NCBI GenBank assembly: GCA_013696965.1
Contig: JACCXN010000021.1
Location: forward strand, 1 to 46,224
Direction of reading: 5' to 3'
Length of the DNA: 46,224 nucleotides
Source: Bacteroidota bacterium
Lineage (GTDB): Bacteria; Bacteroidota; Bacteroidia; JACCXN01
Positions 9,297 to 46,224 of this stretch are shown one piece after another. The notes beneath the pieces are model-generated. The model searched no databases and was not told where the DNA came from. It was given only the letters and a program-made list of their open reading frames with translations. Numbering within the stretch: the stretch's first letter is position 1; the number at the start of each line of letters is the position of its first letter. Both the position numbers and the translations under genes were made by a program.

Positions 9297-10403
9297 ATGA
9301 AAAGACTAGCGCTTTTTTATATTCTTATACTTACAGTTAGTTTTTCCTGCAAAAAAGAAGATCCGATTCTTTCAAACAAAAACACCGCAATAACTATATC
9401 TTCCCCCGTTATTCGTTCACAATTGGAAAAAGGAAAAAAATATGATATTTCCTGGCATACTACCAAATCTGAAAAATTGAAAATTGAGCTGTTTAAGGGA
9501 CAGCATTTTGTTCAGAATATATCCGTTTCTGAACCCAATACAGGTAATTTTCAATGGTTGATTACGCATGATTTAAAGCCGGATTCTTTATATAGGTTAA
9601 AAATAACCTGTTTGGAAAACAAAGAAATTACAGCATACAGCCATTTTTTTACCATTATTGGTGATAGTACTACAAAAAACATTATACCAGGAATAATTTA
9701 TAACAACAATTGGATTAAAGGCAGCGATTGTTTAATTAACTGGGATGATAATATCAATGAAAATGTAAGGATAGATTTATTTTTAAATGGCATTTTATAC
9801 ATGAACATTGTTGAAGAAACCCTCAGTAATGGAACTTATGCCTGGTCAATCCCCACCAATTTACCTACTTCATCAAATTATCGTTTTAAGGTTAGCAGCA
9901 TAATTCATACTGATTTATATGGGTTGAGTGATGTTATAAGAATATCCATGGAAAATGAGGTAAACCTTGTAAAAAATGGAAATTTTTCTAGCGATTCATT
10001 ATGGTACTATTCTAATGCCCAGGTACCGGGGAGCAAAAGGTGGAATATACGTATTGAAAACAATTCAGGCGTTGCCCAGGTTGAATCTCTTCAATCATAT
10101 GGGAGCATTTTGCAGGATTTGAATTTAATTCCTGGCAAGCAATACATAGTTAACTATACCTTAACTCCATTCAATGGTTTTATTGGAGGAGCAATCGTTA
10201 GTTCAAATAATATAAACAGGGCAGCAATTATCTGCATGATGGGTAGTAACACCGGAACAAGACGATATGCAACAGGTTCCTACAGTGATACAATAACTGC
10301 CAATGGAAGCTCTGTTAGTTTTAATATTATTGATCATCCTGCATCCTCACCAAATTCAGGGTTTTTATGCAAATTGGATAATGTTGAAGTCTTTGAAAAT
10401 TAA
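9297..10403 (+). CDS. Lipoprotein with two Kre9/KNH-like repeats and a C-terminal binding-type domain (copy 1)
   Basis: ATG 9297 gives a short signal peptide with lipobox ending SFSC, so the protein should be lipid-anchored; the upstream start at 9261 would spoil the signal. Two similar segments follow the anchor, roughly residues 25-120 and 125-220. Each has a pattern like KGKKYDISW or KGSDCLINWDDN, then GNFQW or GTYAWSIP, then YRLKIT or YRFKVSS. This resembles the Ser/Thr-rich cell-wall (Kre9/KNH) beta domain. The last 140 residues start NLVKNGNFSSDSLWYYS, as in carbohydrate-binding-like beta-sandwich modules. Its paralogue follows 23 nt downstream. It is probably an outer-membrane surface protein; the ligand is unknown. 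Confidence 0.78.
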   Translation: MKRLALFYILILTVSFSCKKEDPILSNKNTAITISSPVIRSQLEKGKKYDISWHTTKSEKLKIELFKGQHFVQNISVSEPNTGNFQWLITHDLKPDSLYRLKITCLENKEITAYSHFFTIIGDSTTKNIIPGIIYNNNWIKGSDCLINWDDNINENVRIDLFLNGILYMNIVEETLSNGTYAWSIPTNLPTSSNYRFKVSSIIHTDLYGLSDVIRISMENEVNLVKNGNFSSDSLWYYSNAQVPGSKRWNIRIENNSGVAQVESLQSYGSILQDLNLIPGKQYIVNYTLTPFNGFIGGAIVSSNNINRAAIICMMGSNTGTRRYATGSYSDTITANGSSVSFNIIDHPASSPNSGFLCKLDNVEVFEN

Positions 10404-10426
10404 TCAGTTTATTAAAAACTACTAAA

Positions 10427-11602
10427 ATGATAGAAGGAATAAAGCCAGATTTTAGTAAATTTAAAAAACAACATATAAAAATGGGTTTTAATCAAGCCGG
10501 AAACATTATTGCGAATATTCTTTTACTACTTGTTTTTATGACTTTAATTAATTCCTGTAAAAGGGATGAAATGATTTATGAAAACAATCATGATATAATT
10601 ATTTCAACTCCCAAAGCACAATCAGTGCTTGAAAAAGGGGAATTTTACCAAATTAAATGGCAAACAGAAAAAGCTGAAAAATTAAGAATTGAACTTTATT
10701 TACAAAATACTCCGGTTCGGTTAATTTCTGTGTCTGAAAATAATTCAGGAAGTTATTCATGGCAAGTTCCTGATGACATAAAACCAGATACCAATTACCG
10801 GATAAGAATTACAGGAATTGACAACAATCAGCTTTCCGGATTCAGTCATTTTTTCATTATTTCAGGTGATTTTGGGACTAAATTTATTAATTGCTCTGAT
10901 TTTATTTTCAACAATTGGGTAAAAGGAAGTGATAGCCTTATTTCCTGGACTGATAACATTGAAGAGGATGTTAAAATTGATTTGTTTTTAGATGGCGTTT
11001 TTCATTCAACCATTGCTCAGGCAACACCAAGCAATGGAAACTTTCTATGGTCTATTCCCCTTGCACTTGCTACCTCATCAAACTACAGCTTTAAAATAAG
11101 CAGCACAGTAAACCCTGGCATTTACAATTTAAGTGATGTATTTAGAATTTCATTAAACAGCGAAATTAACCTGGTTAAAAACGGCAATTTTATTAATGAA
11201 AACTTCTGGAATTATTCAAACCCGTTAACTAACCTTAAAAATCGCTGGAGCATTAACAGTGAATTAAAAACAGCAGAAATAATTTCTTTACAATCCAGTG
11301 GAAGTATTTTTCAGGAACTGGGATTAATTAATGGCCAAAAATATATCATTACTTATGCCTTAAGTAAATACAATGGTTATATAGGAGGGGCAAAAATAAA
11401 TCCATCAGATACTTTCCGGGCTGCAATTGTTTGTTCCATTGGCACTAATTCCGGAGAAAATCGTTATTACGAAGGAATTTATACAGATACAATAATTGCT
11501 GCAGGATCTGCAATTAAATTTATGATATTTGAGCAGGCTTCCTCCTTTCCTAATTCAGGATTTTCATGCAAATTAGATAACATAGAGGTTTTTGCTGAAT
11601 AA
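10427..11602 (+). CDS. Lipoprotein paralogue of the preceding gene (copy 2)
   Basis: This has the same architecture as the gene at 9297: lipobox LINSC, two repeats (EKGEFYQIKWQTEKAEKL and KGSDSLISWTDNIEEDV mark their starts), and a C-terminal module starting NLVKNGNFINENFWNYS. It ends SGFSCKLDNIEVF against SGFLCKLDNVEVF in copy 1. ATG 10427 gives a lysine-rich start before the hydrophobic core; ATG 10481 is possible but leaves no positive charge. The pair are tandem duplicates, probably co-transcribed, and have diverged well past recent duplication. Confidence 0.76.
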   Translation: MIEGIKPDFSKFKKQHIKMGFNQAGNIIANILLLLVFMTLINSCKRDEMIYENNHDIIISTPKAQSVLEKGEFYQIKWQTEKAEKLRIELYLQNTPVRLISVSENNSGSYSWQVPDDIKPDTNYRIRITGIDNNQLSGFSHFFIISGDFGTKFINCSDFIFNNWVKGSDSLISWTDNIEEDVKIDLFLDGVFHSTIAQATPSNGNFLWSIPLALATSSNYSFKISSTVNPGIYNLSDVFRISLNSEINLVKNGNFINENFWNYSNPLTNLKNRWSINSELKTAEIISLQSSGSIFQELGLINGQKYIITYALSKYNGYIGGAKINPSDTFRAAIVCSIGTNSGENRYYEGIYTDTIIAAGSAIKFMIFEQASSFPNSGFSCKLDNIEVFAE

Positions 11603-11654
11603 TCTCAACATGATTTCTTTTTGACTGGAATTTGTTTCCTTCAAAATTCCTCAT

Positions 11655-12141
11655 TTATGTTTTTGTAACTTTTTTTATGCCAATAATGCCTGATTCATCT
11701 GATACTTTGATAAAATAAATACCAATTGGAAATTCAACAATATTGACAATCATTTTTTCAGAAATTGAATATTTTTGATGGAAAACAACCTGGCCTAAAT
11801 TATTAAGAATTTCTATTTCTTTTCCAACTATAAATTCTGACTCATAGACAATTACAATTTCGTTTTGTGAAGGGTTCGGAAAAACATGAATTTTATTCTC
11901 ATTTAAATAGTATTTGGAAATATTTGTCTGTAAATCTTTGTTTGTAACAATATATCCACTGTCACCAACCGCAAACACTATTGAATCAGAATATGAGCTT
12001 ATTGAATTTATAGGGTAATCAACATTTTGGAAAGTCCAAATTGAATTTCCGCTTGTTTCAAAAATCAATCCAGCCATTCCATTTGAAAAATTATCATAGG
12101 CAGCCCCTGAATAAAAAATGTAAAATTCATCCTTAATCTTG
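11655..12141 (-). pseudogene. C-terminal remnant of a T9SS-secreted protein (type A sorting domain)
   Basis: The open frame encodes a beta-rich segment (SGAAYDNFSNG, FAVGDSGYIVTNKD) and then a typical type IX secretion type-A sorting domain: IHVFPNPSQNEIVI, EILNNLGQVV, FPIGIYFIKVSDESG. It lacks a signal peptide and the large N-terminal region such proteins need. The frame can be extended to an ATG at 12215, but there it overlaps, in another frame, the end of an AraC-type HTH (12133-12324), so that lead is unlikely to be native. The piece looks like the 3' end of a larger gene left by deletion or recombination. It is probably not functional. Confidence 0.7.
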
Positions 12142-12324
12142 TATTTTTTGAAATTCAGAAGGAGTAATTCCGGTTTGATTTTTGAAAAATTTACTAAAAT
12201 GGGCGGGGTCTTCAAATTTTAACTCGTAGGCCGATTCTTTAGCAGTTAAGCCTGAATTCAGAAGGCGTTTGGCTTCAAGGATTATTTGTTTATAAATCAG
12301 AAGACTTGCTGATTGATAGTTTTT
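12133..12324 (-). pseudogene. Remnant of an AraC/XylS-family regulator (last helix-turn-helix)
   Basis: Reading the minus strand down to a TAA at 12133-12135 gives about 63 residues. These include LIYKQIILEAKRLLNSG, LTAKESAYELKFEDPAHF and SKFFKNQTGITPSEFQ, the second HTH and tail of the AraC family. A TAG at 12325-12327 closes the frame upstream, and no start codon or first HTH is present, so only the C-terminus survives. Its last codons overlap, in a different frame, the open frame of the T9SS remnant. The junction therefore marks where two unrelated broken genes meet. Confidence 0.75.
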
Positions 12325-12490
12325 CTAATACAAAACTACAGGGTTGTTTTTCCAACTTAATTTGATGAAATTAATTTATCTTTTGTTTAAATAAAATAGA
12401 AAAAAAGCAAAATTTGAAATTCTTTTTAAAGTTTTGTTAAGCAAATTAAGCCAGGCAGAAACATAATGGCCCAACCAGTTTATGTAAATA

Positions 12491-12528
12491 AAAAGAGAGG
12501 AAAAATCCTTTGATCTTCCCTCTCTTTT
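12491..12528 (-). terminator. Hairpin terminator after ornithine aminotransferase
   Basis: The stem AAAAGAGAGG (12491-12500) pairs perfectly with CCTCTCTTTT (12519-12528). On the minus strand it ends in a T-run. It lies about 20 nt beyond the aminotransferase stop. Confidence 0.7.
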
Positions 12529-12548
12529 CTTTTGTAATCCTTTAAATA

Positions 12549-13796
12549 TTACTCTTCAAAAGCAGCTAAAGTATTCTTAATAATGCTAATGCATTCCTGG
12601 ATTTGCTCTTCCGTAATTACAAGTGGAGGTGCAAAACGAATTATATCTCCTTGAGTTTGTTTTGCAAGCAGCCCATTGTCTTTTAAAGCATAGCAAACAT
12701 CTGCTGCATTTTTTCCACTTTTTGTAGGCTTTATAACAATTGCGTTCAACAAGCCCTTTCCTCTCACAGTAGTTATTAGTGGAGACTTTATTTCCAAAAG
12801 TCCTTTTCTTAATTGAGCACCAAGTTTTTCAGATTTGGCAGCAAGGTTTTCCTCAAGCACAACTTCAAGAGCTGCAATTGCCACAGCACCTGCAAGTGGA
12901 TTTCCACCAAAAGTAGAACCATGATCACCTGGGCGGATGCAATTCATAATTTCATCATTGGCAAGAACTGCGGAAACAGGCAAAACTCCACCTGATAATG
13001 CTTTTCCTAAAATAAGTACATCCGGTTTCAAATTCTCATGGTCGCAGGCAAGCATTTTTCCAGTACGTGCAATACCAGTTTGAATTTCATCGGCAATAAA
13101 CAACACATTATTGTCTTTGCATATTTTGGCACAGGCAGTTAAATATCCTTCATCGGGAACTACAACTCCTGCCTCACCTTGAATTGGTTCAACAAGAAAT
13201 CCAGCCACATTTTTATCTTTTATTGCTTCCCTTAAAGCTTCAATATTGTTGTAAGGAATAACAACAAAACCTGGTGTAAAAGGACCAAAATCCTTTCTGG
13301 CACTTTTATCAGTAGAAGCAGAAATAATGGAAATAGTTCTTCCATGAAAATTCTTTTCACAAACTAAAATTATTGCTTGATTTTCAGGAATTCCTTTCTT
13401 TTCATAAGACCACCTTCTGCAAATCTTAATAGCAGTTTCAACAGCTTCAGCCCCGGTATTCATTGGTAAAACTTTATCAAAGCCAAAAAGTTCAGTTACA
13501 TATTTCTCATATTGGCCAAGCACATCATTGTGAAAGGCCCTGGAAGTAAGTGTAAGTTTATCCGCCTGCTCCTTTAAAGCACTTATTATTTTTGGGTGGC
13601 AATGACCTTGGTTAACTGCTGAATATGCGGAAAGAAAATCAAAATATCTTTTGCCATCTACATCCCATAAAAAAACTCCTTCCCCCCTTTCAAGCACCAC
13701 GGGTAATGGATGGTAATTGTGTGCTCCATGCTTTTCTTCAAGTTCAATAGCTTCTTTACTTGAAATGTTATGATTTATCATTGTTTCTCTGCTCAT
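12549..13796 (-). CDS. rocD: Ornithine--oxo-acid aminotransferase
   Basis: A PLP-dependent class III aminotransferase of 415 residues, the usual RocD length. It converts ornithine and 2-oxoglutarate to glutamate-5-semialdehyde and glutamate, linking arginine breakdown with proline. Visible markers are [19 protein letters not shown] near the N-terminus (typical of ornithine rather than acetylornithine enzymes), [30 protein letters not shown]-type text ([14 protein letters not shown]), the lysine region [16 protein letters not shown], and [17 protein letters not shown]. The start ATG 13796 is followed by a short lead before the conserved block. The gene shares a strand with the TraB-like gene 55 nt upstream and is followed by a hairpin terminator. 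Confidence 0.95.
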
Positions 13797-13826
13797 AAAA
13801 ATAAATTTAAAAAATTATATTTGTTT

Positions 13827-13842
13827 CCTGCTTTTTTGCAGG
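13827..13842 (-). terminator. Small hairpin between TraB-like gene and rocD
   Basis: CCTGC-TTTTTT-GCAGG on the plus strand folds as a 5-bp stem with a 6-nt loop in the 55-nt gap. It is too short for a confident terminator and may only attenuate read-through from the TraB-like gene into rocD. Confidence 0.25.
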
Positions 13843-13851
13843 GCTTTGTTC

Positions 13852-14712
13852 TTATTTTGGATTCACCTTATATCCCTTTTTTTCAAATTGACTTATTAAG
13901 CCATCTTCTCCTGCCAGGTGTGCAGCCCCCACCGCAATAAAAACAGATTTTTCTTTCATAATAACCTCTGCCCTTTCAGCCATGTTTATATTCCTTTTTG
14001 TAAGAAAAATTTCAACAAAATCATCCGACAATTCTTGATTTCTGGTCATTTCAAGCAATTTATCCAGGTCTGCGGCAATATAATCGGCCAACATTTTTTC
14101 CATTTCAAGTTCGCTCTGAACACTGTTTTTAACTGCATCAACAAGTCCTTCTGCCTGATCTTTGTATGAAATAGATCTAAAAGCATTAATTTGCTCCTCC
14201 ATTGTTTCAAGACCTACAACAGGTTTATTTTGCTTTTTTGCCAGGGAATAAAAAAATAAATCAAGTGCTTCATTTTTGTCTTGCCTTAAATTGCGCTGTG
14301 ATATCAAGCCAGCTAAAAACAAGGGCTGCATTTTATTGTATATTGCTAAATTCTGATTTAAAGAATCCTTGAAAAACCTACTTACTAATTTGTAATCGCC
14401 CTCAGATAAAAGTGATTGAATAGTAAAGCCGGAATCCATAACAAGTTTTTCCATCACATTTGAATGAATTACCTCTCCCATATCAAGTTCCATTGCAAAA
14501 GTCTGGCACTCATTAAAAGCTTCAATTACATTGTTTTTGAAATTAAACACGCGTTCATCGGCAGTATGCATAGTTCCATACAAAAAAGAAGAATATTTTA
14601 ATCCATTTCCACTAATTTCCCATAACAATGATTTTTGGCTCTGTTGAGAAAAAACAGCAGGACCCAAAAGCATGAGTATCGGAAAAAACAACTGTTTTAA
14701 ATTGCTATTCAT
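13852..14712 (-). CDS. TraB/GumN family protein
   Basis: A secreted or envelope-anchored protein of about 286 residues. The N-terminal signal ends near PAVFSQQSQ, and the mature protein opens with LLWEISGNGLKYSSFLYGTMH. The GTMH block near the start and the closing block FIAVGAAHLAGEDGLISQF are the two conserved regions of the TraB/PrgY/GumN family, which has a Tiki-like fold with proposed metalloprotease activity in some members. The function here is not known. ATG 14712 is chosen; a GTG one codon earlier is also possible. A TAnnTTTG box lies about 54 nt upstream on the same strand. Confidence 0.85.
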   Translation of the reverse strand: MNSNLKQLFFPILMLLGPAVFSQQSQKSLLWEISGNGLKYSSFLYGTMHTADERVFNFKNNVIEAFNECQTFAMELDMGEVIHSNVMEKLVMDSGFTIQSLLSEGDYKLVSRFFKDSLNQNLAIYNKMQPLFLAGLISQRNLRQDKNEALDLFFYSLAKKQNKPVVGLETMEEQINAFRSISYKDQAEGLVDAVKNSVQSELEMEKMLADYIAADLDKLLEMTRNQELSDDFVEIFLTKRNINMAERAEVIMKEKSVFIAVGAAHLAGEDGLISQFEKKGYKVNPK

Positions 14713-14765
14713 CACTGTTAAATTTATCCTTTTTAAAGAAAATTGATTGTTTTTCTTTTACACTT

Positions 14766-14773
14766 CAAATTTA
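14766..14773 (-). promoter_or_regulatory. Putative -7 box for the TraB/GumN gene
   Basis: On the minus strand the sequence reads TAAATTTG, matching TAnnTTTG, about 54 nt before the TraB/GumN start. It lies back to back with the rlmD promoter in a 125-nt divergent gap. No good -33 box is seen. Confidence 0.4.
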
Positions 14774-14824
14774 AGAAATAAACGTCAAAATAAAGTGTTT
14801 TTAATCTAATGAAAAGAAATAAGT

Positions 14825-14832
14825 TAAATTTG
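14825..14832 (+). promoter_or_regulatory. Putative -7 box for rlmD
   Basis: TAAATTTG matches the Bacteroidota -7 consensus and ends only 8 nt before ATG 14841, so the transcript would have almost no leader. No exact TTTG -33 box was found; T-rich sequence at 14796-14803 is the nearest candidate. Confidence 0.45.
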
Positions 14833-14840
14833 CCTCCATT

Positions 14841-16253
14841 ATGAGAAGAAAAAGAGATAAAAAAGTACAAATACTGGAAAACATTACCATAACAGATGCT
14901 GGAAGCGAAGGTAAAACAGTAGCAAAGGTTGATGATTTAGTGATTTTTGTTGAGAATGCCGTTCCAGGAGATATAGTTGATTTACAAATAACCCGTAAAA
15001 AAAGCAGTTACAGGGAAGCCAGGGCAATTAAATTCCACCATCTGTCTGAAAAGAGAATTAAACCCGTTTGTTCTCACTTTGGTGTTTGCGGGGGCTGTAA
15101 ATGGCAGAACATGAATTATGCAGATCAACTTTTTTACAAGCAAAAGCAGGTTTACGATAATCTAGAAAGGCTGGGAAGAGTAGAATTGCCTGCTATAATG
15201 CCAATTATTGCTTCAGAAGAAAGCCTTTTTTACCGTAATAAGCTGGAATTTACCTTTTCAAACAAAAGATGGATTACTGTGGAAGAAATGAAAACCGGTG
15301 CTGATTTAAAAAAGGATGCATTAGGATTTCATATCCCTAAAATGTTTGATAAAATCATTGATATCGACAAATGTTATTTACAAGCTTCGCCTTCCAATGA
15401 AATACGGGATGAGGTAAAAAAATATGCAATTGAAAACAATTATCCCTTTTTTGATATAAGAAAAAAAGAAGGCTTATTGAGAAATCTTATTATCCGAACC
15501 GCATCAACAGGTGAAATAATGGTTTTGGTTTCCTTTTTTTATGATGATATTGAAAAAAGGCAATCATTAATGGATCATCTGGCAGAGAAATTTCCAACTG
15601 TAACTTCTCTGCTCTACGTGATAAATCCAAAAGGAAACGATACAATTCATGATCTGGACATAATAACGCATAAGGGTGAAGGCTTTATTTTCGAGAAAAT
15701 GGAGGATTTAAAGTTCAAAATAAGTGCTAAATCTTTTTATCAAACCAATTCCCAACAGGCATATAATTTATATAAAGTTGCCAGGGAATTTGCTGCCATT
15801 GAAAGCGATCAGATTGTTTACGATTTATACACAGGTACTGGTACCATTGCCAATTTTGTTGCATCCAAAGCAAAAAAAGTGGTAGGTATTGAATATGTTC
15901 CTGAAGCAATAGAAGATGCAAAAGAAAATTCAGAAATAAATAACATTAAAAACACCTCATTTTTTGCAGGTGATATGAAAGATATATTAAATGATGAATT
16001 TTTGGCAAAAAACGGAACACCTGATGTGGTAATAACTGATCCGCCACGGGCAGGAATGCATATTAATGTGATTGAAAAATTACTGGAAATAAATCCAAAA
16101 CGCATTGTTTACGTAAGCTGTAACCCCGCCACACAAGCAAGGGATATTGCCTATCTCGATGCTAAATACCGGGTTGAAAAAATACAACCAGTAGATATGT
16201 TCCCTCATACCCACCATGTGGAGAATGTAGTGTTACTCACAAGCAGAAATTAA
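14841..16253 (+). CDS. rlmD: 23S rRNA (uracil-C5)-methyltransferase, RlmD/RumA type
   Basis: A class I tRNA/rRNA m5U methyltransferase of 470 residues. An N-terminal TRAM RNA-binding domain (EGKTVAKVDDLVIFVENAVPGD) is followed by an iron-sulfur cluster motif spread over PVCSHFGVCGGCKWQ, with a fourth Cys expected near CYLQAS. The catalytic domain follows, with YDLYTGTGTIANF (SAM binding), TDPPRAGMH and the catalytic-cysteine block IVYVSCNPATQARD near the C-terminus. It should methylate a uridine in 23S rRNA, classically U1939. The gene ends with a TAATG overlap into the next methyltransferase gene, so the two are probably coupled. Confidence 0.93.
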   Translation: MRRKRDKKVQILENITITDAGSEGKTVAKVDDLVIFVENAVPGDIVDLQITRKKSSYREARAIKFHHLSEKRIKPVCSHFGVCGGCKWQNMNYADQLFYKQKQVYDNLERLGRVELPAIMPIIASEESLFYRNKLEFTFSNKRWITVEEMKTGADLKKDALGFHIPKMFDKIIDIDKCYLQASPSNEIRDEVKKYAIENNYPFFDIRKKEGLLRNLIIRTASTGEIMVLVSFFYDDIEKRQSLMDHLAEKFPTVTSLLYVINPKGNDTIHDLDIITHKGEGFIFEKMEDLKFKISAKSFYQTNSQQAYNLYKVAREFAAIESDQIVYDLYTGTGTIANFVASKAKKVVGIEYVPEAIEDAKENSEINNIKNTSFFAGDMKDILNDEFLAKNGTPDVVITDPPRAGMHINVIEKLLEINPKRIVYVSCNPATQARDIAYLDAKYRVEKIQPVDMFPHTHHVENVVLLTSRN

Positions 16254-18409: not shown

Positions 18410-21400
18410 ATGATGAGAGTGATGCTTAGGTGTTTTATTATCTCAGTATTTTTACTGTTGCTTTCATCCATTGTTAAATCCCAAACCTTTACTTCAGAAG
18501 CCGACATGAAAAAACATGTCAGAAAACTCTTTGATAATAAGGAATATGTTAATGCAGCTCCTTACTTTTCTCAATTATTAAGTCTTTACCCAAAGGATCC
18601 TGAGTACAATTTCAAATATGGCACTTGTCTTTTATTTTCTGATCATGATAAAGAAAAAGCTATAAAATTTCTTGAATTTGCTTCCACAAAAGAAGGTGTA
18701 GACCCAGAAGTGTTTTTTTATCTTGGAAAAGCATTTCATTTGGATTATAGATTTGAAAAGGCAATAACCGCATATAAAACATTTATTGAAAAGGGAACTT
18801 CTAAATCAAAGGCTGATCTTCAACCAGAAAGACAGATTGAAATGTGCAAGAATGGAAAAACATTAATTCGGAACATAACCGAATTAATTGTAATGGATAA
18901 AAAGGAGATTAAACAAATGGATTTTTTTAGAAGTTATGATTTGGATGACTTCGGTGGAAAAATAATTGTAAAGCCCGATGACTTTAAAACTCCTTTCGAT
19001 ATCAAGCAAGGAGAGAAATCTGTAATGTTTCTTCCAAATAATCCTGATAAAATATTTTTTGCTAGTTATGGTGAAAACAATAAAAATGGAAAAGATATTT
19101 ATAATGTAATAAAGCTTGATAACGGTGAATGGAGCAAACCTAAAGCATTAGGACTAAAAATAAATACTCCCTTTGATGAGGATTATCCTTTTATGCACCC
19201 CAACGGCAAAACACTTTATTTTTGTTCTAAAGGCCATAATTCAATGGGTGGATACGATATTTTTAAATCGGAATATGATAAAGACAATGATTCATGGAGT
19301 ACACCGGTAAACCTTGATTTTGCTATTAGTTCACCTGATGATGACATGCTTTTTATTACTGATAAAGAGGAGAAATTAGCTTATTTTTCCTCTTCCAGGG
19401 CGAGTATTGAAGGTTATATTACTGTTTATAAAATCAACATTGAAAGCAAGCCAGAGGAATATATTCTTGTGAACGGAAAGTTTTTCACAGAAATAAAGGA
19501 TGTTTCAAAATCAGTTACTATTAAGGTGTACAGGATTTCTGACAATAAGTTAATTGGAAATTTTAGTTCGCAATCAGATGGTTCTTATGTTTTAAAAATT
19601 CCCAATGGAGGAAGGTTTAAATTTTTAGTTGAAGCAGCAAGGCATCCGGTACAAAGTGGAATTGTTGAAGTTCCATTTCAAAAAGATCCAAAAATGCTTA
19701 AGCAGGAAATGGAATTGGTGAGAAATGAAACTGGGGTTAAATTAACCATCCGGAATTTATTTGATGAAGAGATAAAAGAATCTGAGCAACTTCTTGCACT
19801 TGATATTATAAAACTCCAGGCAAAACTTGAAGTAAATTACAATCCTGATTTGGCAATAAGGTATGAAGAAAAAGAAGCGCATAAGGTTAATGAGATTAAG
19901 AAAAGTCAAGGGAATACCACCAACCAGGTAAAAGAAAATAATCCTTCGGTTTCTAATTCAGATATTACAAAAATAGCTTTTCAGGATGCAGAAGTTTTGA
20001 AAAATGAAGCAGAAGAATTCAGAAAAGAAGCTGACTTTGCTTTTGCTTTTGCAGAGAAGAAAAGCATTCAGGCTGATGAAAAACAAAAAGAATCTGAAAA
20101 AGCAAAAAAGGAAGCGCTTGCAAATCAGGATATGGCCCAAAGAAAAACAGGCCTGGATAAGGCTGAGGAACTTAAAAAAGCTTCAGTAAGCCTTACCAAT
20201 CAGGCATCTGTAGCTCTAAAAATAGCTGAAAAATCAGACAATGATGCCAAAAGAAAAAAAGAAGAATCGGAAATTGCCTTGCAATATGCAAAGGAATTAG
20301 ATTCTGCTGTTAATTCAACCTCCTCCAAAGAGGCGCTTGATAAACTAAAAACCCAAAAAACAAATCTCGAAAACTCTGCAAATGGTAATGGAGCCAAGGA
20401 TATTTTAAGTCAAACACGTAATGAGCAAAAAGAAAAAAATAAGCAAGCTGAAAGAGCAAGGAAGGAAGCAACTGAAAGTAAAACTGAAGCTGATGAAATT
20501 AAAACTGAAATTCAGAATTTAGAGAAAGTAATTGAAAAAACAAAAGATAAAAAAGGCAAAGCCTCTCTTTCAGAACAACTCTCAACATTAAAGGAGGATC
20601 ACCAAGAGGCTGAAACAAAAGCCAATGCAAATAATGAAAAAGCACTAATGCTTGAAAAGGAAGTAACGAGCTTAAACAACGAGGCAGGTTTAATAGAAAA
20701 AATGATAACAGAAATCAGTTTAAAAGGAAATCAAACTCTTTCCATGGATAAAAACCAGATTAAACAAATCAAGGAAAGAATTGATGAACAAAAGATTTCC
20801 GCTGCTAATGAACCCAACAAAAATTCTTTTTCTGAAAACAATACATTAACGGAAAATAATAAATCTAAAGAAGTACAGCAAAGCAAGCTAACAATAGAAG
20901 AAACGCCAGGAATTAATTCTGAAAAACAAAACAAGTTCAATGGTATTGTAAATAATAAGGGAGAAATAGTTGATTATGGAGCAGATTTCAAAAAACAATT
21001 GGAAGAAAACACAAATAAACCAAACGGAGTAGAAAAAGCCAAAACAAATGCAAGAATTACTAATCAGTGGGCAGAATCAATAAATGATGAAATAAATTTA
21101 AGAACCGAAAAAATTAAAAGCCTCAATGCAAGTGAACAAAAGCAAGAAGAAAAACGAATTGCTGAACTTGAAAAAGAATTGATTGTAAAAAAGAGTGAAG
21201 CTAAAAAACTCCAGGAAGCTTCAACAGCACTTGAAAAAATAGAATCTGAACAAGTGATTGCCAATAAAAAAGAACAAACAGAGAATGTTGAACCAACTTC
21301 GGAGGCTAGCAAAAAACATTTTGAAGGGGTTGCTCCGTTTGCAGAAAGAGTTGAAATTCCGAATCAACAAGGGGAAATTTCCGATTATAGCAACACCTAC

Positions 21401-24400
21401 ATTGATCAACTAGACAAGACTGAAACATTAGGAGATGATTTTAATAAGGAAAGAACGAAAGCCGAAATTTATAGTAACTGGTCCTCCACAATGCGTCAGG
21501 AGATGCTTATTCGAGAAGAAAACATCAAGAATTTGAAAGGCAAAGAAAAAAAGGCCGAACAAATAAAAATTGACCAACTGGCAAATTCAGCAATTTCCAA
21601 ACAAATTGAAGCTGATGAATTTCTTGCAAAAGCTGAATTACTTCAAAAAAACAGGGAACAGGAAAAGGCACTTTCTTCCAGTAAAAAGATTGTGAACAGC
21701 AACGATAATCCTGAAAAAGAGGAAAAGAACACTAAAATTGAAAATCCTGAGGTTAATGAAATTTTTGAGGAAGAAATTAATTATAGCAATGAGGATGAAC
21801 AGGCAGAAGTGAAAAAGGAAAATAATCCTAAAAAAAAGGAATTGCCAAGTGAAAACCTTAGTGCCGATAATCAAAACAAGGAAAAAACTAACATAGAAGA
21901 AAATCAGGATGCCAGGATAAAAGCAAACAATTCTGTTTTAAAGAATAATTATTCATCCACTTCTGCAAAAGAATCATTGAAAAAGGCTACATCGGTTATG
22001 GATGAAGCAAATAACCTAAGTGTTCAGGCTGATGCAATTAGATCTGGTGTTGCTTCTATTAGTGATCCTGATGAAAAAACAGCCCAACTCAAAAGGGCCA
22101 GTGAGCTTGATAAGCAGGCACAAATGAAAAAAAGTGAAGCTGCACTTGCTTTATCAGATGCAGGCAAAACAGAATTCAATGTGAATAAAATCAATATCGA
22201 AAAGAATTTTAACCCAAGCAAAGAAGGCCAGGAAACAGCAGTGGCTACAATGCTTTTAGAGGAGGCTGATTATTATATAAAGCAAGCTGAACAAACAAGA
22301 CAAAAAGCATTAAGCAATGAAAATCCTGCTTCCCGGTTTAATTTTTTAACCCAGGCGATTGAAATGGAGAAAACGGCCATTGAAAAACAAGTAAAGGCAA
22401 TGGAAATATTAAATATAAAACCTGATGCCTCATTGGCTGCGCTTGCATTAACAGAAAAAAACAATCCAATACAAACTGAGGAAGATGCCAATAAAATAAA
22501 GGTATTAAATGCAGAATCGGAAAGTGAATTTCAAAAAGCAGAGGAATTAGAACAAGAGGCAAAAGAACTTGAAAAAGATGCTCAATATTTATCTGAAAAG
22601 GCTGAAAACACAAAGAAAAAGAAAGAGAAGGAAGTTCTTGTGGAACAAGCCACTGAAAAATCAAAAGAGGCAAAGGTATTAAAAGATGAAGCCAGATTTA
22701 CTTTTGAAAAGGCAGAGAAATTAAAAGAGCAGGCCGCAAGTATAAATCTTTCAAACAGCAAAACTAATTCATTAAATAATGAAAATACTTTTAAGGAAAA
22801 GGAAAATGCCTTAAACAATGAATTAGCAGCAAGTACTAAAAAAGAGAATTTGCGGGAAGAAAAATCACTTCAGCAAGAAAATGAAATTGAACTTAAGAAA
22901 GAGGAAATCAAAAAAGAAAATGAAGCTAAAAATGAATCTTCTAATGCAGTAAAAAAAGAAACCCAACAAATAAATCAAGAGCCGGTAAGGGAAAACCTCA
23001 ATGCTATAAAATCTAAAATTGAGGAACAAAATCAAAAGGGAATACAATTTACTGAACAGGCTCAAATATTGGAAAAAGAGGCACAAGTATTGGCATTAGA
23101 AGCAGAACAGAGTAAAAAGAAAAAGGAAAAAGCTGAATTGTTGCAAAAATCGAATGAAAAGACAGAACAGGCAAACATAAAAAAAGCAAATGCTGGACGT
23201 GCTTTTGAGAATGTTAGAAATCTGGAAAAAGATGCAGCACTTGTAAAGGAATATAATGAACAGACGAATAATACTTCAAACAAGGAGAAGGAAACCCCTC
23301 AATCATCCATTCAGAAAAAAGAAGAATACAGGCAGCAAACAAATTCCTTGAAGAAAAAAACAGAGGAAGAAAGCAACAATGCAAAACAATATTCAGAGCA
23401 GGCCCAAGAGTTGGAAAAAGAGGCCGAGGCACTGGAATTAAATGCCCAAAAAAGTAAAAAGAAAAAAGAAAAAGAGGAGTTTAAACAAAAATCCATTGAT
23501 AAAACAGAGCAAGCAAATTCGAAAAAGGAACTAGCTGAAAACGCCATGGATAATGTAAGGGAATTAGAAAAAGAAATGGCGCTTTTGAAAAAGAACAATC
23601 CGGAAGAAAATGGAACAGCTAATAGAGTAAACTCCAAATCTTTGGTTCAAAATCAAGAAGAATACAATAAAAACACAAGAATATTGGAGGGCAAAATAGC
23701 AGAAGAAAATAAAAAAGCAACACTATTTACAGAGAAGGCCCAAGAGTTGAAAAAAGAGGCCGAGGCATTGGCATTAAATGCCCAACAAAGTAAAAAGAAA
23801 AAAGAAAAAGAGGAGTTTCAACAAAAATCCATTGATAAAACAGAGCAAGCAAATTCGAAAACGGAACTAGCTGAAAACGCCATGGATAATGTAAGGGAAT
23901 TAGAAAATGAAATGGTTCTTTTGAAAAAGAACACTCCGGAAGAAAATGGAACAGCTAATAGAGCCAACTCCAAATCTTTGGTTCAAAATCAAGAAGAATA
24001 CAATGAAAATACAAGGGTATTGGAGGGCAAAATAGCAGAAGAAAATAAAAAGGCAACACTATTTACAGAACAGGCTCAAGAGTTGGAAAAAGAAGCGCAA
24101 GCAATGGCCTTAAATGCCGAACAAAGTAAAAAGAAAAAGGAAAAAGAGGAATTGACGCAAAAATCCATTGAGAAAGCAGAACAGGCAAATTCAAAAAAAG
24201 TACAGGCTGAAAACGCTTTTGATAAGGTAAGAGCATTAGAAAAAGATTTGGTGCTATTAAAAACAAATAAAACTAAAGAAAATGCTTCTATTAAAAATGG
24301 AAATGAGCATTCTAATTCTCCCATTCAGCAGCAAGAAGAATACAAGCAAAGAACAATTGTTTTGAAAAACCAAATTGTTGAGGAAAATAAAAAGGCAAGC

Positions 24401-26158
24401 CAACTAACAGAACAAGCTCAGGAGCTGGAAAAAGAGGCGGAAGTACTGGCATTAAATGCACAAGAAATTAAAAAGAAAAAGGAGAAACTGGAATTACAGC
24501 AAAAATCAAGTGAGAAAACAGAACAAGCAAATTCAAAAAAAGAACAGGCCAAAAATGTACTGACTCATGTGAAAATATTGGAAAATGAGGCTGCTGAAAT
24601 AGTGGTTCTTTCGGAAAAAATAAATCAGGATGAAAAGGAAAAGGAAGAAAAGAAAATTGCCACGGAAGCATTAATTGCAAAATCAAGTATGCCTTCTGAC
24701 ATAAATAAATATGAGGTCCCAAAAATACTTACCGAAGAAATATTTGATAAAGCAGCCCCTACTGTTTATAATGCAAAAAATCCAATACCGGTTGATGCGG
24801 GATTTCCAGAGGGCTTAGTTTTTAAGGTTCAGGTAGGAGCTTTCAGAAATCCTATTCCTTACGATTTATTTAAAGGATTTGCCCCCATTATGGGTGAAAC
24901 CACACCACAAGGTTTTACCAGGTATACTGCCGGAATGTTTAAAGCCCTTGCAACTGCTAATTTGGCAAAAGATGTTATTCGTGGAAATGGATATCCTGAT
25001 GCATTTGTAGTGGTGTTTTACAATGGCAAAAGAATTTCAATGAATGAAGCACAGGCTTTAATTAACAGTGGGAAAATTAATGATAACAATGCATTGGCTG
25101 CCGGGAATTCTAAAACTAATTCCGAAACAACCTTAAATAAAAATGAAAGTTTGAATAATTCTCCACTTAACCAGCAGGAAAAAAACGAAATTAGTAAAAC
25201 GGATGTGTTTGCAAAACAGGAAAAAACCTTTCCTCAGGACGTTGCACCTTATCATGAACTGAATGCTGTAAAAGGATTACTTTATACTGTTCAGGTTGGT
25301 GTTTATACCCGGCCAGTTCCTCCTGGACAGCTTTTTAATATTCAGCCACTTTATGTTGAAAAAACCTCAAATGGAATGTTAAGATACACTTCCGGAATTT
25401 TCAATAATACCACAAGGGCCAACGAAGCTAAAAATACAGTAGTTTCAATTGGAGTAAAAGATGCTTTTGTTTCTGCCTATTACAACGGGGCTAGAATATC
25501 TGTTGCAGAGGCAAGGAAAATTGAAGAATTAAATGGCAGTTCAGTTTTTATTCAATCAAATACAATGAATGTATTACCCGGTGTTTCAAACGATAATGCT
25601 GTTTTTGTTGGACCCATAGTTAATAAAACTGTTCAGGACGAAAGGCCATCAAAGATAACTAAAGCTAAGGATCAGGAAAGTTTAGTGGAACCTAAAGTGT
25701 ACAATCAGGTTATAAACAATCAAGAAGAATTACCAAAGGAACAAAAGGAACAAATTTCCAACCCAATTAAAGAAAATAATCCAGTAAGTGATAGTAATGA
25801 AATAAAACCGAAAAACAATGCTTCATTACCTGAAAACAATGAATTCGAAAAACTACAATTGGATAAAAAAACTTTACCTGGCCTGGAATACAAGGTTCAG
25901 ATAGGTGCATTTAAAGATGAAGTTCCACTTGAAATAGCTACGGTATTCTTTAAACTTTCATATCTGGGGATTAGCCATTATATAAATGATCAAGGTTTAA
26001 CAGTTTACTCCATTGGAAATTATTTTGATTATTCTACGGCAAGCTCATTGAAAAGAAAAATTGCTCAGGACTACAATTTAAAAGATGCTTTTATTGTTCC
26101 ATATTTGAATAAAGAAAAGATCAGTACAAACCAGGCTTTGGAATTGTTGAAAAAATAG
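18410..26158 (+). CDS. Giant TPR-PD40-coiled-coil-triple-SPOR envelope protein
   Basis: A secreted protein of about 2582 residues. Counting from ATG 18410: a signal peptide (cleavage near IVKSQTF); TPR-like helices about 25-150; PD40 beta-propeller repeats about 180-345 (FASYGENNKNGKDIY, YFCSKGHNSMGGYDIF, LAYFSSSRASIEGYI); a carboxypeptidase-regulatory-like beta domain about 355-435 (VTIKVYRISDNKLIG, SDGSYVLKIPNGG). Then comes a Lys/Glu/Ala-rich helical region of about 1650 residues. It includes a pair of about 110-residue repeats near 845-1085 and five tandem 112-114-residue repeats at 1537-2085. Three SPOR-like modules close the protein at about 2136-2221, 2290-2374 and 2492-2577 (KVQVGAF, TVQVGVY, KVQIGAF). 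SPOR domains bind denuded peptidoglycan, so a periplasm-spanning structural or scaffold role is inferred. TTG 18398 would add four residues. There is no OmpA domain. Confidence 0.85.
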   Translation: MMRVMLRCFIISVFLLLLSSIVKSQTFTSEADMKKHVRKLFDNKEYVNAAPYFSQLLSLYPKDPEYNFKYGTCLLFSDHDKEKAIKFLEFASTKEGVDPEVFFYLGKAFHLDYRFEKAITAYKTFIEKGTSKSKADLQPERQIEMCKNGKTLIRNITELIVMDKKEIKQMDFFRSYDLDDFGGKIIVKPDDFKTPFDIKQGEKSVMFLPNNPDKIFFASYGENNKNGKDIYNVIKLDNGEWSKPKALGLKINTPFDEDYPFMHPNGKTLYFCSKGHNSMGGYDIFKSEYDKDNDSWSTPVNLDFAISSPDDDMLFITDKEEKLAYFSSSRASIEGYITVYKINIESKPEEYILVNGKFFTEIKDVSKSVTIKVYRISDNKLIGNFSSQSDGSYVLKIPNGGRFKFLVEAARHPVQSGIVEVPFQKDPKMLKQEMELVRNETGVKLTIRNLFDEEIKESEQLLALDIIKLQAKLEVNYNPDLAIRYEEKEAHKVNEIKKSQGNTTNQVKENNPSVSNSDITKIAFQDAEVLKNEAEEFRKEADFAFAFAEKKSIQADEKQKESEKAKKEALANQDMAQRKTGLDKAEELKKASVSLTNQASVALKIAEKSDNDAKRKKEESEIALQYAKELDSAVNSTSSKEALDKLKTQKTNLENSANGNGAKDILSQTRNEQKEKNKQAERARKEATESKTEADEIKTEIQNLEKVIEKTKDKKGKASLSEQLSTLKEDHQEAETKANANNEKALMLEKEVTSLNNEAGLIEKMITEISLKGNQTLSMDKNQIKQIKERIDEQKISAANEPNKNSFSENNTLTENNKSKEVQQSKLTIEETPGINSEKQNKFNGIVNNKGEIVDYGADFKKQLEENTNKPNGVEKAKTNARITNQWAESINDEINLRTEKIKSLNASEQKQEEKRIAELEKELIVKKSEAKKLQEASTALEKIESEQVIANKKEQTENVEPTSEASKKHFEGVAPFAERVEIPNQQGEISDYSNTYIDQLDKTETLGDDFNKERTKAEIYSNWSSTMRQEMLIREENIKNLKGKEKKAEQIKIDQLANSAISKQIEADEFLAKAELLQKNREQEKALSSSKKIVNSNDNPEKEEKNTKIENPEVNEIFEEEINYSNEDEQAEVKKENNPKKKELPSENLSADNQNKEKTNIEENQDARIKANNSVLKNNYSSTSAKESLKKATSVMDEANNLSVQADAIRSGVASISDPDEKTAQLKRASELDKQAQMKKSEAALALSDAGKTEFNVNKINIEKNFNPSKEGQETAVATMLLEEADYYIKQAEQTRQKALSNENPASRFNFLTQAIEMEKTAIEKQVKAMEILNIKPDASLAALALTEKNNPIQTEEDANKIKVLNAESESEFQKAEELEQEAKELEKDAQYLSEKAENTKKKKEKEVLVEQATEKSKEAKVLKDEARFTFEKAEKLKEQAASINLSNSKTNSLNNENTFKEKENALNNELAASTKKENLREEKSLQQENEIELKKEEIKKENEAKNESSNAVKKETQQINQEPVRENLNAIKSKIEEQNQKGIQFTEQAQILEKEAQVLALEAEQSKKKKEKAELLQKSNEKTEQANIKKANAGRAFENVRNLEKDAALVKEYNEQTNNTSNKEKETPQSSIQKKEEYRQQTNSLKKKTEEESNNAKQYSEQAQELEKEAEALELNAQKSKKKKEKEEFKQKSIDKTEQANSKKELAENAMDNVRELEKEMALLKKNNPEENGTANRVNSKSLVQNQEEYNKNTRILEGKIAEENKKATLFTEKAQELKKEAEALALNAQQSKKKKEKEEFQQKSIDKTEQANSKTELAENAMDNVRELENEMVLLKKNTPEENGTANRANSKSLVQNQEEYNENTRVLEGKIAEENKKATLFTEQAQELEKEAQAMALNAEQSKKKKEKEELTQKSIEKAEQANSKKVQAENAFDKVRALEKDLVLLKTNKTKENASIKNGNEHSNSPIQQQEEYKQRTIVLKNQIVEENKKASQLTEQAQELEKEAEVLALNAQEIKKKKEKLELQQKSSEKTEQANSKKEQAKNVLTHVKILENEAAEIVVLSEKINQDEKEKEEKKIATEALIAKSSMPSDINKYEVPKILTEEIFDKAAPTVYNAKNPIPVDAGFPEGLVFKVQVGAFRNPIPYDLFKGFAPIMGETTPQGFTRYTAGMFKALATANLAKDVIRGNGYPDAFVVVFYNGKRISMNEAQALINSGKINDNNALAAGNSKTNSETTLNKNESLNNSPLNQQEKNEISKTDVFAKQEKTFPQDVAPYHELNAVKGLLYTVQVGVYTRPVPPGQLFNIQPLYVEKTSNGMLRYTSGIFNNTTRANEAKNTVVSIGVKDAFVSAYYNGARISVAEARKIEELNGSSVFIQSNTMNVLPGVSNDNAVFVGPIVNKTVQDERPSKITKAKDQESLVEPKVYNQVINNQEELPKEQKEQISNPIKENNPVSDSNEIKPKNNASLPENNEFEKLQLDKKTLPGLEYKVQIGAFKDEVPLEIATVFFKLSYLGISHYINDQGLTVYSIGNYFDYSTASSLKRKIAQDYNLKDAFIVPYLNKEKISTNQALELLKK
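23018..24664 (+). repeat. Five tandem 112-114-codon repeats inside the giant gene
   Basis: Unit starts are 23018, 23360, 23696, 24032 and 24374, a period of 336-342 nt with the last unit shortened. Each unit carries EQAQELEKEAE, then ALNAQQSKKKKEKEE, then KSIDKTEQANSK and a variable LEK-rich tail. Units 2 and 3 are nearly identical at the DNA level over long stretches. The period is a whole number of codons, so units can be gained or lost without breaking the frame. Confidence 0.85.
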
Positions 26159-26181: not shown

Positions 26182-26475
26182 ATGGTATCAGGTATTTTTA
26201 GTAGTAGCCAAATTTGTACAGAAGAACAAACCAGTATTGCCCAAAAAGTAACACTGAATAAAAATGTGGTATTGTACAATGATGATGTAAATACATTTGA
26301 ATATGTTATAGAAGCTCTTATAGAGGTATGTAACCACAATAGCCTACAGGCTGAGCAGTGTACTTATCTTGTTCATTACAAGGGAAAATGTGCTGTAAAA
26401 ACAGGAAAGATGATTGATTTAAGGCCAGTACAAATTGCATTGCTTGACAGAGGACTTACAGCATCAATTGAATAG
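26182..26475 (+). CDS. clpS: ATP-dependent Clp protease adaptor ClpS
   Basis: A 97-residue ClpS. The core VVLYNDDVNTFEYVIEAL is the N-degron-binding region, and the closing YLVHYKGKCAVKTG fits the family (the Met or His contact positions are less clear). ClpS delivers proteins with destabilising N-terminal residues to the ClpA/ClpC unfoldase in the cytoplasm. The N-terminal tail of about 30 residues is typical. It follows the giant gene by 23 nt without a terminator, so it may be read through from it. No clpA or clpC is in the window. Confidence 0.92.
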   Translation: MVSGIFSSSQICTEEQTSIAQKVTLNKNVVLYNDDVNTFEYVIEALIEVCNHNSLQAEQCTYLVHYKGKCAVKTGKMIDLRPVQIALLDRGLTASIE

Positions 26476-26506: not shown

Positions 26507-27307
26507 ATGAAAAAAAAAGCAATTGTTGCTACACTTTTTGTGTTTATTTTAATTGCTTGTTCAAAGGTGCCTATCTCCAACAGAAGACAGGTAAACATGC
26601 TTCCAGAGAGTACCTTGATGAGTATGAGTTTGACAAGCTACCGTGACTTTTTAAAACAAAAGGTAATTGTGCCTAAGTCAGATCCACAAGCACAAATGAT
26701 AGAAAGAGTTGGAACCAATATTGCAAAATCTGTAACTACCTTTTTAAAAAGAAAAAAGAACACCAAACGGATAAAAAATTTCAAATGGGAATTTAATCTT
26801 GTAAATGATCCAACTGTAAATGCCTGGTGCATGCCAGGGGGAAAAGTTGTTTTTTATACAGGAATTTTGCCAATTACAAATGATGAAGCTGGTATTGCAG
26901 TTGTAATGGGACATGAAATTGCCCATGCTGTTGCACGCCATGGAAATGAACGCATGAGCCAGCAACTTTTGGTAGCAGCTGGTGGCATTAGCCTCGCAAT
27001 TGCCCTTAACGAAAAACCAAAGGAAGCACGTGATATATTTTTATCCTCTTATGGTATAGGTACAACCCTTGGTGTTTTAAAATACTCACGTACACATGAA
27101 TCTGAAGCCGATAAAATGGGATTGGTTTTTATGGCTATGGCAGGTTATAATCCTGAAGTTGCTGTTGGCTTTTGGGAGAGAATGGCAAACCAGGCTAAGG
27201 GAGCAAAACCACCTGAATTTATTTCAACTCACCCCAGTGATGAAAGAAGAATTAAAGACATAAAAGAGTTTTTACCCCAGGCGAAAAAATATTATAAGGT
27301 TTCCTGA
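26507..27307 (+). CDS. M48-family metalloprotease lipoprotein
   Basis: A lipobox IACS near residue 18 predicts membrane anchoring. The zinc motif HEIAH is at residues 136-140 and the third ligand is in HESEADKMG about 65 residues later, the standard M48 pattern (HExxH...ExxxD). The catalytic domain includes NAWCMPGGKVVFYTG and the late STHPSDERRIKDI. At 266 residues it is the short periplasmic type, as in LoiP/YcaL and related proteins, thought to act in outer-membrane protein quality control. It follows clpS by 31 nt on the same strand; the function of the pairing is unknown. Confidence 0.92.
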   Translation: MKKKAIVATLFVFILIACSKVPISNRRQVNMLPESTLMSMSLTSYRDFLKQKVIVPKSDPQAQMIERVGTNIAKSVTTFLKRKKNTKRIKNFKWEFNLVNDPTVNAWCMPGGKVVFYTGILPITNDEAGIAVVMGHEIAHAVARHGNERMSQQLLVAAGGISLAIALNEKPKEARDIFLSSYGIGTTLGVLKYSRTHESEADKMGLVFMAMAGYNPEVAVGFWERMANQAKGAKPPEFISTHPSDERRIKDIKEFLPQAKKYYKVS

Positions 27308-27463: not shown

Positions 27464-27931
27464 ATGACACTTACATTTATTGTTATACTCATTATAGCAG
27501 GTTTAATTCTTGTAATGCTCGAAATTTTAGTACTTCCGGGTATTGCCGTTGTTGGTATTTTAGGTGCAGCAATGATACTATTTGCAATTGTAAGTGCATA
27601 TTCCATTAGTCCAACTCACGGGCATATTGCACTTGCTTCAAGCTTTTTAGTTTCTCTTATTCTAATTTATATAGCCATTAAAAATAAAACCTGGAAAAAA
27701 TTAAGTTTAAATAAAGAAATAAGTGGAAGGGTGAACATTCGTGAAAACCTGGTGAAAGAGGGAGATTTCGGAATTACTGTTTCCAGGCTTAATCCTATGG
27801 GTACGGCTGTGATCAACGATAGTCTTTATGAAGTTGAATCAAAAGAAGGCTACATTGACGAAAACAAGGAAATCATAATAGTAAAAACAACTTCAAATAA
27901 AATCCTGGTTAAATTAAAACAGTTAAATTAA
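27464..27931 (+). CDS. NfeD family membrane protein (short form)
   Basis: A 155-residue protein with two or three membrane helices (MLEILVLPGIAVVGILGAA is the typical NfeD opening). After residue about 95 it has a soluble OB-fold (GDFGITVSRLNPMGTAVIND, VESKEGYID). The short form lacks the ClpP-like N-terminal protease domain of long NfeD. NfeD proteins pair with flotillin-like SPFH proteins, and floA follows after 21 nt, so the two form an operon. Confidence 0.9.
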   Translation: MTLTFIVILIIAGLILVMLEILVLPGIAVVGILGAAMILFAIVSAYSISPTHGHIALASSFLVSLILIYIAIKNKTWKKLSLNKEISGRVNIRENLVKEGDFGITVSRLNPMGTAVINDSLYEVESKEGYIDENKEIIIVKTTSNKILVKLKQLN

Positions 27932-27952
27932 TAATTAAATAAAATCAAAATT

Positions 27953-28936
27953 ATGAATGAAGGAATTGGTATAATTATTTTAATAGCTTTTGCGGCTTTA
28001 ATAGGTCTTTGGATGTTATTTTATTTCATCCCTGTTGGTTTGTGGTTCCAGGCAACATTGTCAGGAGTAAAAACATCTTTGCTACAGTTAATATTTATGA
28101 GATGGAGAAAAGTTCCACCTTCAGTTATAGTAAATGCAATGATTAACTCACGCAAGGCAGGATTAATATTAAACAGTGATGAACTTGAAGCGCATTATCT
28201 TGCCGGTGGAAGGGTGCAAGCAGTTGTTAATGCACTTATATCTGCTGATAAAGCAAATATTCCACTTGATTTTAAATCAGCCACGGCAATTGATCTTGCA
28301 GGAAGAGATGTTTTGGAAGCAGTTCAAATGTCTGTAAATCCTAAAGTAATTACTACACCTCCTGTTGCTGCAGTTGCAAAAGATGGTATCCAGCTTATAG
28401 CTAAAGCAAGAGTAACACTTAGGGCGAATATCCGTCAATTGGTTGGAGGAGCGGGAGAAGAGACTATTTTGGCAAGAGTAGGTGAAGGTATTGTTTCATC
28501 AATTGGTTCTGCAGTTTCACATAAACAGGTTCTTGAAAATCCTGATTCAATTTCCAAAGTAGTACTTGCAAAAGGACTTGATGCGGGAACTGCTTTTGAA
28601 ATTCTTTCCATTGACATTGCGGATATTGATGTTGGAAAAAACATTGGAGCTGAACTTCAAATGGACCAGGCAAATGCAGATAAAAATATTGCCCAGGCAA
28701 GAGCAGAGGAAAGAAGAGCAATGGCTGTTGCTGTTGAACAAGAAATGAAAGCAAAAGCACAGGAAGCAAGAGCCAAGGTTATTGAGGCTGAAGCGCAAAT
28801 CCCAATGGCAATTGCAGAAGCTTTCAGAAGTGGTAATCTGGGAATTATGGACTATTACAAAATGCAAAATATTCAAGCAGATACCGAAATGAGGGATTCT
28901 ATTGCCAAACCAAGAAATGGTCCTAAAAAAGAGTAA
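27953..28936 (+). CDS. floA: Flotillin-like protein FloA
   Basis: A 327-residue SPFH-type membrane scaffold protein. A single N-terminal hydrophobic segment ([16 protein letters not shown]) is followed by the flotillin-like core ([58 protein letters not shown]) and an Ala/Glu/Arg coiled-coil tail ([21 protein letters not shown] in part). FloA organises membrane microdomains. The NfeD gene immediately upstream is the expected partner. A strong hairpin terminator follows at 28975. Confidence 0.95.
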
Positions 28937-45912: not shown

Positions 45913-46224
45913 TCATCTCATTAAATGCAGGGAACCTTGTTTAAAGGCTTCTCCATTTTCCAGAACTCCGGTTATGGTATAATAATAAACCCCCTGGCTG
46001 CATTCCTGGCCTGTAACTGTGTGGCCATCCCAGTGCATATCGTTTCCTTTTTCCCAAGCGTGAATTTGTATGCCCCAGCGGTTGACAATACTTACCTGGA
46101 ATGTTTTTGCCCCTTTTACAACCAGAGTGAATGTATCGTTTTTGCCGTCACCATTGGGGGTGAATACATTGGGGGCAAGCACCAGTAAAGTGGAGGCTAT
46201 GTTTATGGTATGCATTACTGTATC
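45913..46224 (-). CDS. T9SS type B (gliding-associated) sorting domain, 3' part of a large secreted protein
   Basis: The frame is open to the window edge, so the gene continues beyond 46224 and the ATG at 46215 is not its start. The encoded 104 residues hold the type B sorting domain (CHU_C-like): VFTPNGDGKNDTFTLVVKG, VSIVNRWGIQIHAWEKG, WDGHTVTGQECSQGVYYYTI, ending GSLHLMR. Such domains guide proteins through the type IX secretion system. The upstream part is unseen, so the protein's role is unknown. Confidence 0.9.
   Translation of the reverse strand, partial: DTVMHTINIASTLLVLAPNVFTPNGDGKNDTFTLVVKGAKTFQVSIVNRWGIQIHAWEKGNDMHWDGHTVTGQECSQGVYYYTITGVLENGEAFKQGSLHLMR

Follow-up and report, generated by a model that had tools for sequence, protein, structure and literature searches.

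The closest described system is PorE (PG1058), a periplasmic scaffold associated with the outer membrane, in which a TPR domain, a five-bladed propeller, a CRD and an OmpA domain are joined in a lipoprotein at the inner face of that membrane (PMC5053529, PMC7192894). Its OmpA domain has been crystallised with a peptidoglycan fragment (PMC7192894, PMC5053529), and for its propeller TolB in complex with Pal served as the modelling template (PMC5053529). A Pal-like protein of Cytophaga hutchinsonii, CHU_0125, also combines TPR, PD40 and a wall-binding domain, and its deletion breaks outer-membrane integrity (PMC5891637). In TolB-Pal, a PD40 propeller with six blades is coupled beneath the outer membrane to a wall-binding module, the OmpA-type Pal, and the two parts are separate proteins. 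A different wall-binding fold, SPOR, occurs in CwlC, RlpA, DedD, DamX and FtsN; in these the head is enzymatic or membrane-anchored and a single SPOR domain is usual, CwlC having two. SPOR domains bind denuded glycan, which is enriched at the septum, and in the RlpA SPOR complex the glutamine that contacts NAM and NAG is Q270 (PMC6895207).

We analysed a stretch of 46,224 nucleotides (the window) from a Bacteroidota bacterium. It contains an uninterrupted open reading frame at 18398/18410-26158 on the plus strand, which encodes 2582 aa when counted from the ATG. The domain order is signal peptide, TPR, PD40 blades, CRD-like beta domain, about 1650 helical residues and three SPOR modules (Table 1). 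The same architecture is kept in dozens of independent genomes, which rules out a frameshift, an assembly artefact or chance: the single giant chain of about 2582 residues described in the original prediction is real. AT skew is strongly positive across 20-26 kb because the codons of the helical region are rich in Lys, Glu and Asn.

Table 1. Features of the giant gene and its downstream neighbours (positions in the window).
Feature	Residues	Position	Strand	Evidence
Signal peptide, type I-like, without lipobox	1-25	18410..18484	+	sequence; '...AQ/SQ' ends kept among relatives
TPR domain	30-152	18497..18865	+	Pfam TPR_2 E=2.5e-4; AlphaFold; Foldseek
Three PD40 (WD40-like) blades	195-245, 250-300, 305-352	18992..19465	+	Pfam PD40 E=1.1e-8
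Carboxypeptidase-regulatory-like (CRD) beta domain	~351-449	19460..19756	+	crossed by NCBIfam PorE and CHU_0125 partial matches; beta strands in model
Helical region, E/K/N/A-rich	~457-2128	19778..24793	+	predicted helix pairs and disordered linkers
In-frame tandem repeat, 336 bp (112 aa), 3.5 copies, 83% matches		23366..24546	+	Tandem Repeats Finder
SPOR module 1, motif VQVGAF	2129-2221	24794..25072	+	family profile 7e-36; Pfam SPOR 17 bits; predicted fold
SPOR module 2, motif VQVGVY	2283-2375	25256..25534	+	family profile 3e-35; predicted fold
SPOR module 3, motif VQIGAF	2485-2582	25862..26155	+	family profile 6e-25; Pfam SPOR 16.5 bits; predicted fold
ClpS-like gene, 23 bp downstream of giant		26182..26475	+	named by eye; conserved neighbour
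M48-type metalloprotease lipoprotein gene		26507..27307	+	named by eye; conserved neighbour
NfeD-like and FloA/flotillin-like genes		27464..28936	+	named by eye; conserved neighbours

The signal peptide ends in the '..SQ/AQ' usual in Bacteroidota and common to the relatives, and a lipobox, judged by pattern only, is absent from the 2582-aa protein. Together with homology to the periplasmic proteins PorE and CHU_0125, the signal peptide supports an exported, predicted periplasmic protein and not a cytoplasmic one. Identity as a T9SS cargo was rejected: no C-terminal sorting domain was seen, and SPOR occupies the C-terminus.

The N-terminal head has the TPR-PD40-CRD architecture of PorE and CHU_0125, as judged by profile matches. 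The CHU_0125 family of NCBIfam gives the best match for the head (residues 144-455, 99 bits; cut-off 620, not reached), and T9SS_PorE (NF052230) matches residues 213-428 with 88-91 bits, below its full-length cut-off of 600. Both partial matches cross the beta domain that had been called regulatory-like from the letters alone, which identifies it as a PorE-type CRD. In the AlphaFold model of the N-terminal 450 residues (mean pLDDT 88), the TPR domain forms eight helices, most with pLDDT above 90, and Foldseek aligns it with TPR structures at TM 0.7-0.8. With whole models, Foldseek returned lists dominated by TPR matches or nothing at E below 0.001, and phmmer with the whole protein found no match in the PDB. 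A blade profile recognises the three PD40 blades at E=1e-17, 5e-27 and 1e-13. The same profile counts three, no more and no fewer, in 79 of 81 relatives, against four or five in PorE and PorE-like proteins. 'Three' here means three recognisable blades, as strands ahead of blade 1 in the model could conceal a divergent one.

The likeness to PorE thus extends over export, the TPR-PD40-CRD order and a C-terminal domain of peptidoglycan-binding type. In contrast to PorE, the giant protein has SPOR in place of OmpA (no OmpA domain was matched anywhere in the 2582 aa), lacks a lipobox, shows three recognisable blades where PorE has five, is longer by about 1650 helical residues and has other neighbour genes. 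CHU_0125 differs in having only 656 aa and an OmpA domain, and the giant lies far below its family cut-off. With the CwlC-to-FtsN group the giant shares the SPOR fold and the VQ(I/V)G motif with its glycan-contacting Gln, but a PorE head and a spacer of this kind are absent from all of them. The resemblance to TolB-Pal is one of principle, and we claim no sequence membership for the giant.

In the 2582-aa protein alone, Pfam SPOR (PF05036) finds modules 1 and 3 below threshold (about 16.5-18.5 bits versus 21) and does not match module 2. At the level of the family the signal is much clearer. Pfam SPOR individually matches 23 of 35 family modules (best 1.7e-7), and a module profile built from the three window modules and their relatives finds the SPOR structure of CwlC, 1x60, at E=1.6e-5. 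The same profile finds two or three copies in every complete giant within the set of 20 nearest orthologues. AlphaFold predicts three SPOR-like alpha/beta folds (pLDDT above 90) with disordered linkers between them, and the order of strands and helices agrees with SPOR; the DedD SPOR structure 6ztg ranks third in Foldseek (probability 0.89, E=0.36), a match that is weak when taken alone. The Gln of the VQ(V/I)G motif is conserved in 52 of 52 relatives in module 1, in most in module 2 and in a majority in module 3, the family's most divergent module. Family profile, predicted fold and conserved Gln together secure the SPOR identity of the three C-terminal modules, as originally proposed, and on this identity binding of the C-terminus to peptidoglycan is likely. 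In some relatives Lys or Asn replaces the Gln of module 3, which may then fail to bind glycan.

The original prediction also saw the long helix as a possible strut or ruler: one extended rod that keeps outer membrane and wall a set distance apart. All giant forms have a long helical region, and its apolar periodicity of 3.38-3.44 residues, which is that of left-handed coiled coils, would suit such a rod. The AlphaFold check proposed at the time gave a different picture, with paired helices of similar length (50-65 residues) joined by three-residue turns, e.g. 516-571/575-639, and not one extended helix. In the repeats the turns fall at a KKKKEK motif and disordered linkers separate the pairs, so that the predicted geometry is that of antiparallel hairpins. 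A hairpin profile finds six related units (1373-1446, 1539-1613, 1653-1727, 1765-1839, 1877-1951 and 1991-2064), part of which is formed by the 336-bp tandem repeat. Were 1590 of these residues a single helix, its contour would reach about 240 nm, several periplasm widths. Among 81 relatives the helix ranges from 626 to 2258 residues (3.6-fold) and drifts by about 20-160 aa within genera; on this range we rejected a fixed-length ruler. When 40 relatives are aligned over their full length, only two stretches of the helical region near the head, about 511-780 and 871-930, are near-universal, and the remainder is variable. Unconserved length, growth by tandem repeat, predicted hairpins with disordered linkers, and a short relative described below make a rigid strut or ruler very improbable. 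Of the earlier interpretation as a whole, export, the three SPOR modules, a likely wall binding and, by analogy with PorE, a contact through the head are therefore supported, and the strut or ruler is not.

When 60 genomes of the class were searched, more than half gave strong head matches with long frames. Scanning the collection with the head alignment added many further relatives, from records labelled as Flavobacteriales, Crocinitomicaceae, Cryomorphaceae and unclassified Bacteroidia; among the carriers are the cultured Salibacter halophilus and Brumimicrobium salinarum. We collected 81 complete SPOR-bearing relatives of 1160-3129 aa, mostly from deep Flavobacteriales; they were chosen by head similarity, so that the sample leans to close relatives, and include a few duplicates between collections. 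Three SPOR modules are present in 52 of them, two in 21, one in 5 and four in 3. Among 148 evenly sampled genomes of the phylum only two have a head match at E<=1e-50, with the window's genome among the matching rows, and the giant is therefore lineage-restricted. Open-literature searches for SPOR combined with PorE or PD40, or with giant or coiled-coil proteins, in Bacteroidota returned no description of the family, which is no proof of absence. These very large exported proteins thus form a family that is apparently undescribed, is widespread in deep-branching, mostly uncultured Bacteroidota and is predicted to be periplasmic and wall-binding. One relative is broken into two overlapping frames (L057:8881-10407 and 10316-15241), by a gene break or a sequencing error.

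A compact protein of 604 aa from another family of the class (L167:3791-5605) shares with the giants the TPR-PD40-CRD head, the SPOR type and a clpS gene directly downstream, but it has one SPOR module and no long helix. The long helix is therefore not the core of the function. A search for relatives of this compact protein in 20 other genomes of the class returned PorE-like matches only. In a tree of the heads the giants group with 0.94 support, together with the compact protein and a set of two-unit paralogues. The simplest history is that of a compact ancestor which grew as the helix was inserted and the SPOR modules multiplied; reduction from a giant form is also conceivable, since the 604-aa protein nests in the giant clade. 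Two paralogues of 965 and 975 aa (L069:8180-11077 and L070:8129-11056) consist of two tandem units of TPR and three-blade PD40, without SPOR, and a 475-aa TPR-PD40 protein, also without SPOR, sits ahead of NfeD-FloA.

The neighbourhood of the giant gene is conserved in part. A same-strand clpS-like gene lies downstream in 43 of the 67 relatives with sufficient flank, often within 50 bp, with an M48 gene nearby in 30 and NfeD-FloA in 10 of the 67. Among 62 relatives, 29 have plsY upstream and 31 have an exported protein of about 1500 aa there; in the window genome these two are together on another contig, the ~1500-aa protein being encoded at L164:1471-5955 (G000:C32). The orthologue in L043 has no Pfam or NCBIfam match. 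This conserved protein is a candidate partner of the giant.

Could the giant belong to the T9SS or to surface anchoring, tying to the wall either the secretion machine itself or PorP-like barrels together with their type B CTD cargo? The head is of PorE-like descent, the SprA translocon is present, a PorP-like ORF of the same genome bears its own SPOR match, and PorP-PorE-like complexes are the suggested anchors of nonmobile type B CTD proteins (PMC9143113). However, the genome already contains elsewhere a separate PorE with OmpA (681 aa, 530 bits), for which reason we also rejected the identification of the giant as PorE itself. The conserved neighbours are PlsY, ClpS, M48, NfeD and FloA, with no adjacent porP-like gene and no cargo cluster at the locus, and the giant is missing from most of the phylum sample. 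A T9SS role is thus unlikely.

On balance, we favour the view, from sequence and by analogy, that the giant protein is a secreted, soluble tether or scaffold of the periplasm, with a PorE-like design. The head and the SPOR modules are conserved while SPOR count and helix length vary. The tether is supported by the phenotype of the CHU_0125 deletion (PMC5891637) and by the wall anchoring proposed for PorP-PorE-like complexes (PMC9143113). The head would dock on a protein or complex of the outer membrane, a mode of contact that is known for the TolB propeller and has been proposed for PorE; the partner near the outer membrane that was suggested for it earlier is consistent with this analogy with PorE. 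Because the giant has no lipid anchor, its association with the outer membrane is argued by analogy only. At the other end, the SPOR modules would bind glycan strands stripped of peptides, several weak modules giving avidity, and the chain of helical hairpins would serve as a flexible spacer that provides reach. The mode of action would resemble that of PorE, or of a fused TolB-Pal, with a far longer lead and another wall-binding domain. The family shows that the scaffold design of PorE and CHU_0125 can exchange OmpA for SPOR as its wall-binding domain and can reduce its propeller, and it makes the way in which outer membrane is tied to wall testable in the two cultured carriers.

Where along the envelope this tether would work is a more tentative matter. 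It might act at or near division sites, fixing to the wall either the outer membrane itself or a machine of that membrane; the septum is favoured because SPOR ligands are enriched there, and the septal targeting of SPOR is known from phyla other than that of these bacteria. We regard a septal location as possible, again by analogy. More specific still, and overlapping with the tether, is a role as a cell-division factor: the SPOR triplet would carry the head to the septum, where it would coordinate outer-membrane constriction or local wall remodelling as a single-chain analogue of TolB-Pal. The septum-enriched ligand of SPOR (PMC6895207) fits this role, as does PD40 being also the fold of TolB, on which, with Pal, the PorE propeller was modelled (PMC5053529); but division genes are absent nearby, and we consider the role rather doubtful. 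A further elaboration, which we judge quite improbable, takes the three-bladed head as half a propeller. Two heads would pair into a six-bladed TolB-like ring. The resulting dimer would have two long flexible arms and six SPOR anchors; gathering at the septum, it would link new wall to the outer membrane and, as a single protein, take the place of TolB-Pal in these lineages. If this were so, the 965- and 975-aa two-unit paralogues would be covalent versions of the pair.

SPOR-based wall anchoring may recur in the window genome beyond the tether proposed here. The PorP/SprF-like ORF (L075:7676-9058, G000:C91) has its SPOR match in frame and lies beside an ORF of 1799 aa. The genome's strongest SPOR match is in a protein of 350 aa (L073:7908-8960, G000:C20), and a 968-aa protein (L071:4445-7351, G000:C5) carries TPR, PD40, CRD, OmpA and SPOR on a single chain. 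In the window itself, an ORF end on the minus strand (45913-46215), cut near the contig end, resembles by eye a gliding-motility-associated (type B) C-terminal domain.
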